In this document: positions 16,175 through 19,792 of the stretch, in pieces | Layout of the letters: the number at the start of each line of letters is the position of its first letter | How positions within the stretch are numbered: position 1 is the stretch's first letter | DNA from: an uncultured Actinomycetes bacterium | GTDB taxonomy: Bacteria > Actinomycetota > Thermoleophilia > Solirubrobacterales > 70-9 | NCBI GenBank assembly: GCA_946482365.1 | Contig: CAMLQY010000001.1 | Location: 124,001 to 188,000, forward strand | Direction: 5' to 3' | Length of the DNA: 64,000 bases | The notes under the pieces: model-generated | What the model saw: only the letters and a program-made list of their open reading frames with translations | What the model was told of the DNA's origin: nothing | The model's database searches: none | Translations under genes and position numbers: made by a program

Positions 16175-16234
16175 CCAGGGCTCTCGAGCGGCGGCCCTTT
16201 CACAGGCCGCAAGTCGCATCTGGCTGGGCGACGA

Positions 16235-17395
16235 TCAAACCCCGGTCCCGCAGACGGGGCACTCCGGCTCCTGCACGACCTCCTCTCTTTTCGCCTCCAT
16301 CGTGCGAAGGTCGTAGATGTTGCTCACGCCGAGGCTCGACGGCGTTGCGAGGCCGGTCAGGAAATGCATGACGTCAAGGGCGATCTGACCGCCGATCAGG
16401 GCGCAGGCCGCCCCCAGCGTGGCCGCCGGGGAGGGCTTGGCACGCTGCTGCTCGACGACCGGGTCGTAGAGGGGGTAGGAGCGTTTGTAGGCGATCTCCT
16501 GGCACGAGTAGCAGCCAGTTTCACCTGGGACATACAGAGGCCCAACGCGGGCAATCGGCGGATAGTGGCTCATCGCTATGTAGGGGATGCCGGCCGCAAA
16601 GCAGGCCGAGTTGACCCAGAGCTCGATGTCGTGAGCCGGCCAGTCGACGGCGTTGACGACGAGGTCGCAGCCCTCGATCGACGCCGCGACCGCCGCCTCG
16701 CTGCCGAGCCGTTCTTCGCGGGTCTCGATGCGAATCGAGGGGTTGAAGTCGTCGAGCCGCTTGGCCGCGAGGCCCGCCTTTGGCTGGCCGACATCGGCCT
16801 CGCCGTAGAGGATCTGGCGGTTGAGGTTGCTCAGCTCGACCGTGTCGAAGTCGACCAGCAGCATCTCGCCTATGCCGCAGCACGCGAGCGTCAACGCGGA
16901 CCACCCGCCGAGGCCTCCGACGCCCAAGACCGCGATGCGGGCTTCCTCCAGCTTCTCCTGGCATTGAGACGGCGTCTGCCCATTCGAGACGTCGCTGAAG
17001 TAGCGGAGCTGGCGGTCGAAGCGGGTCCGGGTATGTGGGTCGATCAGGTCGTCGTCGGATGCGTCCTCTCCCAGCCCCATCTCCTCGAGCTGGCCGATCA
17101 GCTCGCCGACCAGGTCGACCCCGAACTCCTCGTCCAGCTCCCGACGGGTGCGCGTACCGTCCAGCGCGCCAATGAGCTGCCTCAGCTGCGGGCTCGGATC
17201 TTTGATCCGAATGTCCGAAGCTTCGCTCGGCCTACGTAGGTAGAGGTCTCCGCCCGGCGCCTGAAACTGCTCGGTCGTGCGCTTGATCCGCGGTCTTTTC
17301 CACGTGGTTCTAGGCAGCGCGGGCAACGTAGATCGCCTTCGTGTGGGTTGTGTCGTCCAAGGGCTGGCGCGGGATGCCGTCGGTGCTTTGGCCAT
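16235..17395 (-). CDS. MccB-like ThiF/E1 adenylyltransferase with N-terminal RRE-like domain
   Basis: E1-like enzyme that would adenylate the C-terminus of a peptide or carrier protein. Seen, from the conserved start near 17290: a PqqD-like winged-helix segment (DLYLRRPSEASDIRIKDPSP, RTRRELDEEFGVDLVGELI), then the linker HTRTRFDRQLRYFS, the ATP-binding VLGVGGLGGWSALTLACCGIG, the catalytic region DFDTVELSNLNRQIL, GPLYVPGETGCYSCQE, and a C-terminal PECPVCGTG giving a Cys4 zinc site. The order closely matches MccB of microcin C synthesis, where the N-terminal domain binds the precursor peptide. Start uncertain: 17395 is an in-frame ATG that overlaps the methyltransferase by 86 nt; GTG at 17303 would fit the family opening (MERPRIK) only with one A fewer in a run of four. 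Confidence 0.8.
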   Translation of the reverse strand: MAKAPTASRASPWTTQPTRRRSTLPALPRTTWKRPRIKRTTEQFQAPGGDLYLRRPSEASDIRIKDPSPQLRQLIGALDGTRTRRELDEEFGVDLVGELIGQLEEMGLGEDASDDDLIDPHTRTRFDRQLRYFSDVSNGQTPSQCQEKLEEARIAVLGVGGLGGWSALTLACCGIGEMLLVDFDTVELSNLNRQILYGEADVGQPKAGLAAKRLDDFNPSIRIETREERLGSEAAVAASIEGCDLVVNAVDWPAHDIELWVNSACFAAGIPYIAMSHYPPIARVGPLYVPGETGCYSCQEIAYKRSYPLYDPVVEQQRAKPSPAATLGAACALIGGQIALDVMHFLTGLATPSSLGVSNIYDLRTMEAKREEVVQEPECPVCGTGV

Positions 17396-18113
17396 AGACG
17401 CCCAGGCATGTGAGGCCAGCGCGGTCGATGGCGGCAAGGACCTCGGCTTCCGTGAAATGGCGCTGGCGATGGATGGAGACGTTGCAGCGGTCACCCGCCT
17501 GATCCTCGCCGGACTGCTTCTCAAAGCATGAGAACTCATAGATCGAGCCCGGCTCGATCTCATCCATTGCGTTCCCTTGAAAGACGAAGCGGCGGCCGTC
17601 TCGCTCGACCTCGACGCCCTCTGCGTAGAAGGCGTAGACCGGCAGCTCGTTCACGTCGAAGAGCAGCAGGCCCGAGGGCGCCAAGTTGCTCCGCATTCCC
17701 TTGAGCGTCGCTTCCAATTCCTCGACGCTGAGCAGGTAGTTGATCGCGTCGTCCAGCGCCCAAACCAGATCGAACTCGCCAAAGCACGGCAGCTCGCGCA
17801 TGTCGGCGACCTCGAGGCGAACGGCATCGCCGACCTTCTGCTGCGCCATGTCGAGCATGGATGCCGAGATGTCGCAACCCACGGCCCGCCACCCGCGCGG
17901 GAGCATCGGCAGGAAGCTCTTACCCGTGCCGCAGCCGACGTCGAGCAGTCGCTGGCCCTGAAGCCCCTCTCGCTCGAGGACGATGAGGAGCTGCGCGGTC
18001 CAGAACTCGTATTCGTGGTGGGCGGTGAAGTCGTCGTAGAGCGGCGCCATTGCCTCGTAGGCGCGCTCGGCCCAGTCGCCGCCAGGCCCGGCTGTCACTG
18101 CCTCCCCCGTCAC
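17310..18113 (-). CDS. SAM-dependent class I methyltransferase
   Basis: 267 residues, GTG start (an alternative GTG lies 15 nt further in, right after GGGGGAGG). Seen: AYEAMAPLYDDFTAHHEYEFW, motif I LLDVGCGTGKSFLPML (56-71), the acidic post-I segment RAVGCDISASMLDMA, motif II/III region FDLVWALDDAINYLL and FTEAEVLAAIDRAGL near the end. It belongs to the broad small-molecule/peptide methyltransferase class (methyltransferase-25/11 type). Lying between two candidate precursor ORFs and an MccB-like enzyme on the same strand, it may methylate the modified peptide; this is inference. Confidence 0.87.
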   Translation of the reverse strand: MTGEAVTAGPGGDWAERAYEAMAPLYDDFTAHHEYEFWTAQLLIVLEREGLQGQRLLDVGCGTGKSFLPMLPRGWRAVGCDISASMLDMAQQKVGDAVRLEVADMRELPCFGEFDLVWALDDAINYLLSVEELEATLKGMRSNLAPSGLLLFDVNELPVYAFYAEGVEVERDGRRFVFQGNAMDEIEPGSIYEFSCFEKQSGEDQAGDRCNVSIHRQRHFTEAEVLAAIDRAGLTCLGVYGQSTDGIPRQPLDDTTHTKAIYVARAA

Positions 18114-18141
18114 CGCAAGGGCAAAGGCTATCCGAAGCTGA

Positions 18142-18342
18142 TCGACTAGTCGAGTGGCTTCGGCTGTCTGACGACAAGGTCAACGGCGGCCGATACCCGC
18201 CGGGGCCGGGCTCGGCCCGAGCCCCCATTTAGCGGCCGTGAATGTGTCGACCCCCGGAACCACCACCACGACCGTTTCAAGCCAGTCCATAACCCCCCCT
18301 CGCCGTGGCTTAACAATGGGCTAGCCGAAATCCATAAATTAA
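18142..18342. repeat. Diverged tandem duplication, unit 1
   Basis: Unit of about 200 bp opening with the palindrome TCGACTAGTCGA. It can be aligned end to end with 18343-18528: shared blocks include GGCGGCCGAT, the CGACC[G/T]TTTC block and CTA[G/C]CCGA near the end. Both units contain a short minus-strand ORF at the same relative position. Confidence 0.7.
18180..18290 (-). CDS. Candidate precursor peptide 1
   Basis: 36-codon ORF, ATG preceded by a GAGGGGGGG Shine-Dalgarno at proper distance. Translation begins MDWLETVVVVVPGVDT, continues FTAAKWGLGPSP and ends APAGIGRR. It lies 66 nt upstream of the methyltransferase on the same strand and is homologous, codon by codon over its first 20 codons, to the ORF at 18421-18486 (shared L-E-x-V, VVP, T-aromatic, A). 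Too short for standard gene callers. Interpretation as a RiPP-type precursor is inference from the size, ribosome site, duplication and MccB-like neighbour; it does not end in the Asn expected of true microcin-C precursors. Confidence 0.45.
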   Translation of the reverse strand: MDWLETVVVVVPGVDTFTAAKWGLGPSPAPAGIGRR

Positions 18343-18528
18343 TCGAGTAGTTTCAGCTAGTTGACGAAAATCAAGGGCGGCCGATTCCCCCTTTGGGCTG
18401 AGATCGGCCGCTTATGCTTATTAAGCAGGCTTCCATGTAGAGATCGCCGGAACAACGGCATCGACCTTTTCGAGCACGTAAATCACCCCCTCCCGCTGGT
18501 TTTGGGATAACCCAGCTACCGAGGGTAA
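18343..18528. repeat. Diverged tandem duplication, unit 2
   Basis: Second unit of about 186 bp, opening with a degenerate form of the palindrome (TCGAGTAGTTTC) and followed by an intact palindrome at 18529-18540. It is visibly AT-richer than the flanking chromosome (for example CATAAATTAATCGAGTAG across the boundary). Confidence 0.7.
18421..18486 (-). CDS. Candidate precursor peptide 2
   Basis: 21-codon ORF (GTG start at 18486, or GTG at 18477) after a GGGAGGG ribosome site; translation MIYVLEKVDAVVPAISTWK then PA. It aligns with peptide 1 (LEKVDAVVPAISTW against LETVVVVVPGVDTF), but a stop falls where peptide 1 reads Lys, and the conserved downstream GIGR-like codons are out of frame. It is therefore either a shorter true paralogue or a decayed copy. 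It is first in the presumed minus-strand transcript that goes on to the methyltransferase and the MccB-like gene. Confidence 0.4.
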   Translation of the reverse strand: MIYVLEKVDAVVPAISTWKPA

Positions 18529-18541
18529 TCGACTAGTCGAT
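18528..18541. promoter_or_regulatory. Palindromic operator-like site ATCGACTAGTCGAT
   Basis: Perfect 14-bp palindrome located 42 bp before peptide-2 ORF and 115 bp before the divergent winged-helix gene. The inner TCGACTAGTCGA recurs at 18142-18153, and with one central mismatch at 19316-19327, just after that gene. A likely binding site for one of the two local regulators. Confidence 0.45.
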
Positions 18542-18656
18542 CAACCTTGGTAAGTAGTTCTGTGCAGATAGACAGAGCTATCTCAAATACTCGTTTGCAC
18601 CTAATGAAGATCGGCTAAGGTCCGGCGGGTTCAAATTGACCCGAGAGGAGAGGGCT

Positions 18657-19262
18657 GTGGGAAAAACGGTGATGCCGGAGATCCGTATCGACGAGCAGCT
18701 CTTTCGTCTGCTCCATAACCCTGGACAGCTTGCGGCCCTGGTTGCCCTGGGCGAAAGTCCGGCATCAAAGAGTGACATAGCCAGGGAGCTCGGCATAAGG
18801 CTCAACAAGGTGGACTACGACGTCGGAGAGTTGGAGAAGATGGGCTTGGTCGAGCCAGTCGGCACGGAGATGAGGCGAGGGCAAAGAACGACCATCTATC
18901 GGAGCGTGATGCGACCGATATTGAGCAACGAGGAATGGGGCGAGCTGAGCCAAGAGGACCGAGAACGGCTTGTGCTCTGGACTTATCAACTGCTGTTGCG
19001 GGATGCCACGGTCGCTTGGCGCGCGCGGACCTTCCAGGCACGTGCAGAGTCGCATACCAGTCGATCTCCACTCCGTGTCGATGAGCTTGGCTGGCTCAAA
19101 ATCAATGAAGGTCTGGACGATCTACTAGCCCTTTGCCGCGAGGCCGAAGTCGAGAGTGTCGATCGGGTGCGCGATGCCGGCGACGAGGATAAGCTCATCA
19201 ACATCAGGGTTGCGATGTTCTCTTTCGAGATGCCATTGGAAGCAGAGAATCCTGATAAGTAG
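18657..19262 (+). CDS. Winged-helix transcriptional regulator
   Basis: 201 residues from GTG at 18657, preceded by GAGAGGAGAGG. Seen: an ArsR/TrmB-like winged helix at about residues 10-80 (LFRLLHNPGQLAALVALGES, KSDIARELGIRLNKVDYDV, GLVEPVGTEMRRGQRTTIYR) followed by a helical C-terminal region without a recognised ligand domain. It is transcribed away from the candidate peptide/methyltransferase/MccB-like operon and flanked on both sides by TCGACTAGTCGA-type palindromes, so local control of that operon is a sensible hypothesis. Confidence 0.8.
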   Translation: MGKTVMPEIRIDEQLFRLLHNPGQLAALVALGESPASKSDIARELGIRLNKVDYDVGELEKMGLVEPVGTEMRRGQRTTIYRSVMRPILSNEEWGELSQEDRERLVLWTYQLLLRDATVAWRARTFQARAESHTSRSPLRVDELGWLKINEGLDDLLALCREAEVESVDRVRDAGDEDKLINIRVAMFSFEMPLEAENPDK

Positions 19263-19315
19263 CGAAGTGTCAAACTTGATCAACCTCGCCGAGGTAAGCG
19301 AGGCCCCGAAATCGA

Positions 19316-19327
19316 TCGACTTGTCGA
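19316..19327. promoter_or_regulatory. TCGACTTGTCGA palindrome copy
   Basis: Copy of the TCGACTAGTCGA palindrome with one central mismatch, embedded in a longer AAATCGA...TCGATTT symmetry, in the 240-bp gap between the two winged-helix genes. Confidence 0.4.
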
Positions 19328-19502
19328 TTTGACAGGTTCGAAAAATGTGGACGTTTTTCTCGCGCGGCTGTGAAAGCCTCCACTACTCCGACAAAGGATG
19401 AGTGATGAGTCTCTCCCCCGAGTCGAGCAACTGTTCCAACGCCCCTGGGCGGCTTTCAAAAGTGGCCCTTGCCGTCCCAGGGCGTTTGGGGCAGAGAAAG
19501 CT

Positions 19503-19766
19503 ATGCAAGCCGAAAGCAGCCAGCCACCACACATGGACGCGAAAATCCAAATCGTGCTGTCCCACTCCAGGCGCGCGGAGATCTTCGACCGCATACGGAA
19601 AAAGGACGGGACGAGCGAGGACGAGCTGGCCGCCGAGCTCGGCATGGGGATTCGTGCAGTCGAGTACCACCTGAAGGTTCTGCACGACGCCGCTCTGATC
19701 GCGCCCGTTGACGGTGAGCAGGGGCCGGGCGTCGGAGGCTCCTACGTAGCGACATCGACCTCCTGA
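19503..19766 (+). CDS. Small ArsR-like winged-helix protein
   Basis: 87 residues from ATG at 19503 (a longer version of 122 residues from ATG 19398 is possible, but its first 35 residues look non-conserved). Seen: LSHSRRAEIFDRIRKKDGTS, ELAAELGMGIRAVEYHLKVL and ALIAPVDGE...GGSYVAT, a complete ArsR-type winged helix with its wing and no effector domain. No metal-binding Cys motif, so it is not a classic metal sensor. It is probably part of the accessory island with the larger regulator. Confidence 0.75.
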   Translation: MQAESSQPPHMDAKIQIVLSHSRRAEIFDRIRKKDGTSEDELAAELGMGIRAVEYHLKVLHDAALIAPVDGEQGPGVGGSYVATSTS

Positions 19767-19792
19767 TCCCCCCCGCCGGAGAGCGCCAATCG

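Follow-up and report, generated by a model that had tools for sequence, protein, structure and literature searches.

The window analyzed here, a stretch of 64,000 nt from contig CAMLQY010000001.1 of an uncultured soil Actinomycetes bacterium, carries a compact cluster comprising an 18-aa peptide gene, a diverged copy of that gene, an S-adenosylmethionine (SAM)-dependent methyltransferase, an E1/ThiF-like adenylyltransferase (hereafter E1), and two regulators (REG1 and REG2); this gene set is real, and its coordinates hold (Table 1). The explanation that we favor, at a probability of about 55%, is a peptide-maturation island of the ribosomally synthesized and post-translationally modified peptide (RiPP) type, in which E1, with its RiPP recognition element (RRE)-like domain, would close a macrolactam on the lysine at the third position from the C-terminus of the peptide, Lys(-3). 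A first-pass annotation of this DNA had proposed a RiPP or peptidyl-nucleotide-like cluster, which it took for an acquired island with a methyltransferase and two local regulators; as a whole, its interpretation is partly supported, since these genes and the island are confirmed, whereas the peptidyl-nucleotide chemistry is not borne out.

The E1-like enzyme and its island

E1 has the MccB-type layout claimed in the first-pass annotation, namely an RRE-like N-terminal domain, the motif GPLYVPGETGCYSCQE, and a C-terminal CPVC. It starts at a TTG codon at position 17326, which overlaps the methyltransferase stop, and its close homologues begin LPAxP..W; a 442-aa open reading frame (ORF) from 17563 is merely the mechanically longest frame around it. 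The cysteine pairs of E1 are C272/C275 and C356/C359, and among 37 aligned rows, N167, R170, Q171, K183, D228, C272, C275, and C356 are invariant, while C359 is a cysteine in 33. The spacing of R170/K183/D228 equals that of R167/K180/D225 in EnfB (PMC12250964), and the spacing of Q171/K183 equals that of Q167/K179 in IndF (PMC12150305), according to the portions of these two papers on which we draw throughout. With its catalytic residues invariant and so spaced, the adenylation site of E1 looks intact.

A profile of 21 relatives, compared with solved structures, ranked MccB first (1e-41) and PaaA second (3e-39, profile positions 11-353), followed by ThiF and MoeB. Consistent with this, a 37-row profile gave 247 bits to a PaaA-like protein and 245 bits to MccB versus 162 bits each to ThiF and MoeB, where the PaaA reference, here and in our tree, is a Pantoea ThiF-family protein (L156) that was assumed to be PaaA-like without proof. 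In the predicted structure of E1 (pLDDT 93.7), strands and then three helices form an N-terminal unit, and a Foldseek search with this model placed MccB at the top (E = 5e-27) and PaaA next (1e-25), across nearly the whole chain; from this fold and match, the N-terminal domain of E1 is judged to be RRE-like. In the tree, 34 family rows lie on one side of a branch (91/95 support), and six housekeeping E1s lie apart (100/99); MccB, the PaaA-like protein, and the E1s linked to major facilitator superfamily (MFS) genes were not united in one clade. The first-pass annotation had made its reading depend on E1 not grouping with MoeB and ThiF; E1 indeed stands apart from them in bit scores, tree, and Foldseek, which, together with the RRE-like N-terminal domain, rules out a housekeeping enzyme, and by sequence E1 belongs with MccB and PaaA. 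A reading as a defense system (PADLOC E1-E2, mad2) was also rejected, the matches spanning the shared domain only. Among 7995 proteins scored in an E1 search, 2508 matched at E <= 0.001, the best 120 of these being 67-94% identical. The broad class of ThiF-like/RRE RiPP enzymes is marked by the fusion of an RRE to a ThiF domain with intact catalytic residues and by proximity to a short precursor gene, and this combination is found here.

On the minus strand, the transcription order is short ORF 1 (the peptide gene), short ORF 2 (its diverged copy), methyltransferase, and E1, with both regulators on the plus strand. In nine of 12 relatives, the site is empty with all three neighbors present (M29 aminopeptidase, 144-aa membrane protein, and yebC), and the gap from the aminopeptidase to the membrane gene measures ∼30-500 bases; in the window, the cluster fills a gap of 3.6 kb and is therefore an inserted island. 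In a tenth relative (L181), the M29-yebC distance is 495 bases, without a match to the membrane gene, and the remaining two (L176 and L182) were not judgeable. The AT-richer DNA on which the claim of acquisition had drawn is evident as a GC fraction of 0.55-0.61 at 18.0-19.5 kb, versus ∼0.70 around it. A phage origin was rejected, as the PHROGs matches were to families of unknown function, to general methyltransferases, or absent, and a viral_contigs scan returned no relative. A simple sigma-70 promoter scan over 16-20 kb found zero sites.

The precursor peptide family

The window peptide ends in Lys-Pro-Ala, with Trp at -4. Homologues of ORF 1 lie beside the same kinds of genes at 23 other loci of a first order (232 genomes) and at two loci of a second order (247 genomes), so that the conservation of the short ORF, another point that the first-pass annotation had left to be checked, is seen at the protein level across loci of two orders. 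The 25 first-order peptides (from the window and the 23 other loci) are 18-21 aa in length, follow a strong Shine-Dalgarno (SD) sequence, and carry Lys(-3), although a count of 25/25 is partly selection because some were found with a Lys(-3) filter. Other columns are Pro(-9) in 20, Gly(-2) in 16, and Ser(-6) in 13 peptides, while the last position, unlike -3, is variable (G, S, A, N, V, R, F, or M). None of the 25 contains Cys, four contain Trp, three end in Asn, and seven lack any Asp or Glu; no Asp or Glu occurs within the last nine residues in 20.

An unfiltered scan of 14 gaps upstream of E1 genes found an SD-led short ORF in 11, and all 11 hold an ORF with Lys(-3), the gap of L057 also having a second, overlapping short ORF that lacks it. 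The gaps without an SD-led short ORF are those of L061, L064, and L065; in L064, the peptide sits just after E1 instead. Over 948 kb counted without the filter, Lys(-3) was present in 23 of 34 SD-led ORFs of 17-23 aa near a methyltransferase, E1, or REG1 gene versus two of 37 elsewhere, and these two resemble members of the family (one, L145, by a weak REG1 match, and the other, L146, lying ∼0.8 kb from a methyltransferase). At 21 of 24 loci, the sequence after the stop codon folds into a hairpin with z below -1.5 (mean z -3.7), the 25th peptide (L115) ending 37 bases from a contig end. A hairpin between precursor and enzyme genes is the usual layout where the precursor must outnumber its enzymes.

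E1 (E <= 1e-60) was found in 28 of the 232 first-order genomes, and the methyltransferase (E <= 1e-30) occurs in all 28 of them versus 24 of the 204 genomes without E1. In the stretches read near E1, methyltransferase, or REG1-type genes, 20 of the 28 E1-bearing genomes yielded Lys(-3) peptides and the other eight yielded none. Near a methyltransferase, such a peptide was present in 17/28 E1-bearing genomes versus 0/24 without E1, the latter contributing 25 loci, of which some lie on short contigs. Among 30 distinct E1 loci, the peptide lies within ∼1.2 kb of the E1 start in 16 and the methyltransferase is adjacent in 14; methyltransferase, peptide, and E1 follow in that order on one strand at 12 first-order loci.

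Of 396 genomes sampled across the phylum, 11 matched at E <= 1e-45, with a whole-length E1 match only in G001, G612, and G467, the last lying outside the 232 first-order genomes. In the second order, E1 was present at E <= 1e-40 in G467 and G876 only. The G467 locus (L183) has a divergent HTH_5 regulator and, on one strand, a methyltransferase, the peptide MDFIKEIEKQVNPAEIIKNI, an E1 33% identical to that of the window, and an MFS gene. At the G876 locus, a methyltransferase, the peptide MTIEKDEKKVQASEIIKNI (SD GGGGGGTG), a hairpin (-31.3 kcal/mol, a bare folding energy without shuffles), and E1 lie on one strand. Both loci combine a Lys(-3) peptide (..EIIKNI) with a hairpin; both peptides were listed without the Lys filter, which was applied in one rerun for L183.

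Three side observations concern other E1 loci. A subgroup of E1s (L001, L003, L004, L005, and kin) lies next to genes for an MMPL transporter and a member of the uracil-DNA-glycosylase superfamily, with no methyltransferase in cis (the glycosylase-like gene checked in L003 and L005, with Pfam run on L001). In Microbacterium and Bifidobacterium E1 loci (L022, from 6866 on, and L017, from 433 on), SD-led short ORFs before E1 end in YRVGQQ and YRVGGG, and a transporter-like gene follows E1, possibly representing another tiny-precursor family of E1-like enzymes. A family-5 solute-binding protein gene lies <4 kb from E1 in five of 19 loci compared (L056, L057, L059, L063, and L069; Pfam on L057 only). 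This class includes oligopeptide-binding proteins, and it may possibly serve the uptake of a peptide signal.

Proposed chemistry and its alternatives

From the gene set, the peptide family, the E1 fold, and the island, we infer the following course. The island regulators would control the 18-aa precursor, separated from the enzyme genes by the hairpin; the winged-helix RRE-like domain of E1 would hold the N-terminal part of the peptide; and E1 would adenylate the C-terminal carboxylate with ATP. The side-chain amine of Lys(-3) would then most likely attack the acyl-adenylate, giving a 13-membered macrolactam that spans the three C-terminal residues (Lys-Pro-Ala here and mostly Lys-Gly-x in the relatives), for whose closure Gly or Pro at -2 would be apt. 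The methyltransferase would methylate the peptide, and the product would probably act as a signal or an antibacterial compound. That the peptide is the substrate of E1 is very probable, and activation of its C-terminal carboxylate is probable: the seven peptides without Asp or Glu offer this carboxylate only, and E1, if it acts on the peptide, therefore acts there. Since Cys is absent and Trp unconserved, Lys(-3) is the sole side-chain nucleophile at a fixed place, and its capture of the activated carboxylate has, in our estimate, slightly less than an even chance. Action of the methyltransferase on the peptide is somewhat better than an even bet, and a signaling role of the product is doubtful.

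ThiF-like RiPP enzymes share carboxylate adenylation and differ in the nucleophile (PMC12150305). EnfB, IndF, and GrcB, ThiF-like RiPP cyclases of Enterococcus and Streptococcus, resemble the window enzyme as RRE-E1 proteins adenylating a precursor carboxylate, which in EnfB and IndF is the C-terminal one: IndF links Trp to the carboxylate of a C-terminal Ile (PMC12150305), and EnfB, using a single ATP, activates the C-terminus and turns it into an imide or amide (PMC12250964). By analogy, these two enzymes with the same catalytic residue spacing offer a precedent for C-terminal activation. The nucleophiles of the three cyclases are a backbone amide, a Trp indole, or a Cys, whereas here Lys(-3) is conserved and neither Cys nor Trp is. 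Accordingly, an indolylamide of the IndF kind (Trp near the C-terminus) was rejected because of the scarcity of Trp, though the window peptide has one at -4, and thiolactone (GRC) RiPPs, with a C-terminal Cys, an internal Glu, and radical SAM partners, were rejected for want of Cys; no radical SAM gene is among the island genes. PaaA (the pantocin A E1; PDB 5ff5) matches E1 over nearly its full length in sequence and fold. It works on two Glu side chains, and the pantocin precursor has a Glu-Glu core; this chemistry was likewise rejected, seven peptides having no acidic residue at all.

Several observations weigh against the maturation scheme inferred above. Peptides were not found beside 14 of the 30 distinct E1 loci (two of which, L061 and L065, are distant members, while 10 of the other 12 have an MMPL transporter upstream), and, conversely, eight of the 25 peptides lack an E1 in cis, with a ninth ending at a contig end. 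G612 has a full-length E1, but the stretch read beside it contains no Lys(-3) peptide. Several peptides were first picked by the Lys(-3) filter, an effect that touches neither the unfiltered counts nor the other columns, and the genomes compared are related to one another, so that Fisher values are inflated. Lys(-3) could serve binding and not catalysis; neither an exporter nor a protease is among the genes of the window's island; and the nearest named kin of the methyltransferase fit N-methylation as well as C-methylation. Because the methyltransferase is also present in 24 E1-less genomes, seven of them with quite different tiny peptides, its tie to the E1 product is loose.

The alternative that retains most of this scheme is that E1 activates the C-terminus and something other than Lys(-3) captures it, whether a backbone amide, giving an imide as in EnfB, or an acceptor from outside (an amine, a thiol, or a lysine of a protein), with Lys(-3) acting as a recognition residue or joining peptides into chains. 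We regard this as possible, though not likely. The single-ATP imide or amide formation by EnfB (PMC12250964) speaks for it, and a variable C-terminal residue next to an invariant -3 position also fits a recognition role; however, imide chemistry has no need of a conserved Lys, and the 19 loci compared share no gene family in more than five beyond REG1, E1, the methyltransferase, and a sigma-like gene. It is improbable that the tiny peptide chiefly serves REG1, as its ligand or leader, with E1 as a passenger: REG1 kin do lie near several peptides without E1 in cis (L112, L113, L114, L117, and L145), but Lys(-3) peptides occur, among the genomes examined, only in those with E1 (20/28 versus 0/24), and the peptide stands between methyltransferase and E1 on one strand at 12 first-order and both second-order loci.

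Quite improbable is a microcin C-like peptidyl-nucleotide, in which E1 would join the C-terminus to a nucleotide by a P-N bond and the methyltransferase would decorate the product. MccB (the microcin C7 E1; PDB 3h5n and 6om4) is the closest solved relative of E1 and is alike in its RRE-like clamp and ThiF domain, whole-chain fold match, Cys pairs, and tiny substrate; a SAM-dependent enzyme is present in an mcc cluster (L155), and an MFS gene follows E1 in one distant relative of our cluster (L183). The identity to MccB is only 24%, however, and the family peptides are 18-21 aa with Lys(-3), of which three of 25 end in Asn, the residue adenylated by MccB (PMC12150305), the window peptide ending in Ala. 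Furthermore, no MccC-like, MccE-like, or MFS gene was found among the island genes, to which this search within the 64-kb window was confined, and the methyltransferase scores 21 bits against MccD, which excludes that identity; here the first-pass annotation was right about the missing mcc genes, and its peptidyl-nucleotide suggestion finds no support in the peptide ends and the MccD score. As a side observation, L155 (2722-5860), on an IncX1 plasmid of an E. coli isolated from a pig, is a microcin C-like locus annotated only in general terms, in which MRTGNAN is readable upstream of a ThiF-family gene, followed by MFS and SAM-dependent genes.

Hardly credible, finally, is a function of E1 as a TOMM (azoline) docking protein. 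The TIGR03882 signature of such proteins matches E1 above its cut-off (44.5 versus 36.9 bits), and NCBI names the relatives of E1 "TOMM precursor leader peptide-binding protein"; this naming is contradicted because YcaO is nearly absent (one of 28 E1-bearing genomes, on another contig, the window's own genome lying outside this count), and the peptides have no Cys, while the ATP-site residues of E1 are intact.

Accessory genes and wider meaning

The methyltransferase has an alternative GTG start at 18098, immediately after GGGGGAGG. Its closest kin among solved structures are two unnamed enzymes, followed by indole C-methyltransferases (113 and 108 bits), sugar N,N-dimethyltransferases (103-98 bits), and CypM (75 bits), which methylates a RiPP N-terminus. 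PsmD and SeMT (indole C-) and DesVI, TylM1, and CypM (amine N-methyltransferases) are kin in fold and sequence, though at ∼18-26% identity only; N-methyltransferases as the nearest kin were rejected, the indole C-methyltransferases ranking equal or higher, and so was a daptide methyltransferase (56.9 bits versus the NF041820 cut-off of 175 bits). In seven of the 24 E1-less genomes (L120, L122, L123, L127, L131, L138, and L140), SD-led tiny ORFs built of repeats (IIRP, IIKP, FIRP, and ICRP units, e.g., MQIIRPIIRPIIRPAIIRP) directly follow the methyltransferase gene; the gene after the repeat ORF is of one type in all of these except L140, and the one tested has a Crp-like HTH.

Table 1. Features of the island and their positions in the window.
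Feature	Position	Strand	Remarks
Inserted island	16175..19792		Between M29 aminopeptidase and 144-aa membrane protein/yebC; empty site in relatives
E1/ThiF-like adenylyltransferase, 363 aa	16235..17326	-	Pfam ThiF 7.8e-54; N-terminal winged-helix RRE-like domain
Class I SAM-dependent methyltransferase	17310..18113	-	Pfam Methyltransf_25 1.8e-17
Palindromic operator-like site	18132..18163		Upstream of methyltransferase
ORF 2, 36 aa, diverged tandem duplicate of gene 1	18180..18290	-	Lys(-3) and stop lost
Degenerate operator copy	18325..18346		Upstream of ORF 2; 73% to copy at 19306
RNA hairpin, attenuator/terminator-like	18377..18411	-	Directly after precursor stop; z -2.35, and -3.07 on another 60-nt stretch
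Precursor peptide gene 1, 18 aa, GTG start	18421..18477	-	MLEKVDAVVPAISTWKPA; SD GGAGGGGGTGA; Lys at -3
Palindromic operator-like site	18517..18552		Upstream of precursor gene 1
REG1, winged-helix regulator	18636..19262	+	Divergent from peptide genes; HTH_20 6.2e-5, below its cut-off
Operator-like site	19306..19327		Upstream of REG2
REG2, ArsR-like winged-helix protein	19398..19766	+	HTH_20 6.7e-8

Of the two short related ORFs noted in the first-pass annotation, only the first is an intact family member, although the tandem duplication is genuine and extends from the operator through the SD and the ORF to the hairpin (the local alignment of the two DNA copies scores 93, versus a mean of 20.0 and a maximum of 32 for 500 dinucleotide shuffles). 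In the colinear alignment of the two genes, the Lys codon AAG has become ACG (Thr) and the stop TAA has become AAA, and ORF 2 therefore runs on for 16 codons, through its hairpin; the most fitting view is of a copy that is decaying or has been repurposed. The palindrome TCGACTAGTCGA occurs three times in the window with at most one mismatch, all within the island (0.17 expected), and one of the three has a mismatch; if a regulator binds them, the operator-like sites would define a small regulon.

REG1 homologues adjoin 15 of the 16 peptide-bearing E1 loci of the first order, one of them (L060) weak and downstream. A short sigma-70-region-2 gene adjoins REG1 in nine loci (L055-L059, L062, L063, L066, and L069; Pfam on one), and in the window REG2 lies near REG1 in its place.

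The peptide relatives in two actinobacterial groups point to an undescribed modified-peptide family, and we tentatively propose a new actinobacterial RiPP family in which E1 would make a Lys-x-x macrolactam on precursors of 18-21 aa, the product being methylated and read by REG1 as a signal. No paper was recognized as describing the peptide family or a Lys-type ThiF-like cyclase in a search that left most subscription papers and all supplements outside, and the unannotated clusters in the supplement of PMC12150305 may include it. A Lys nucleophile is absent from the reactions of MccB, PaaA, GrcB, EnfB, and IndF as described in the portions of PMC12250964 and PMC12150305 covered here, and would be new if true; from the conserved Lys together with a free C-terminus, a Lys-based cyclase is predicted. 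Because genes of this length easily escape annotation, such a family would be missed. At 18-21 aa including the recognition part, the precursors lie within reach of solid-phase synthesis and could be assayed directly in vitro, and the 27 natural peptides from two actinobacterial groups constitute a ready set for specificity mapping.

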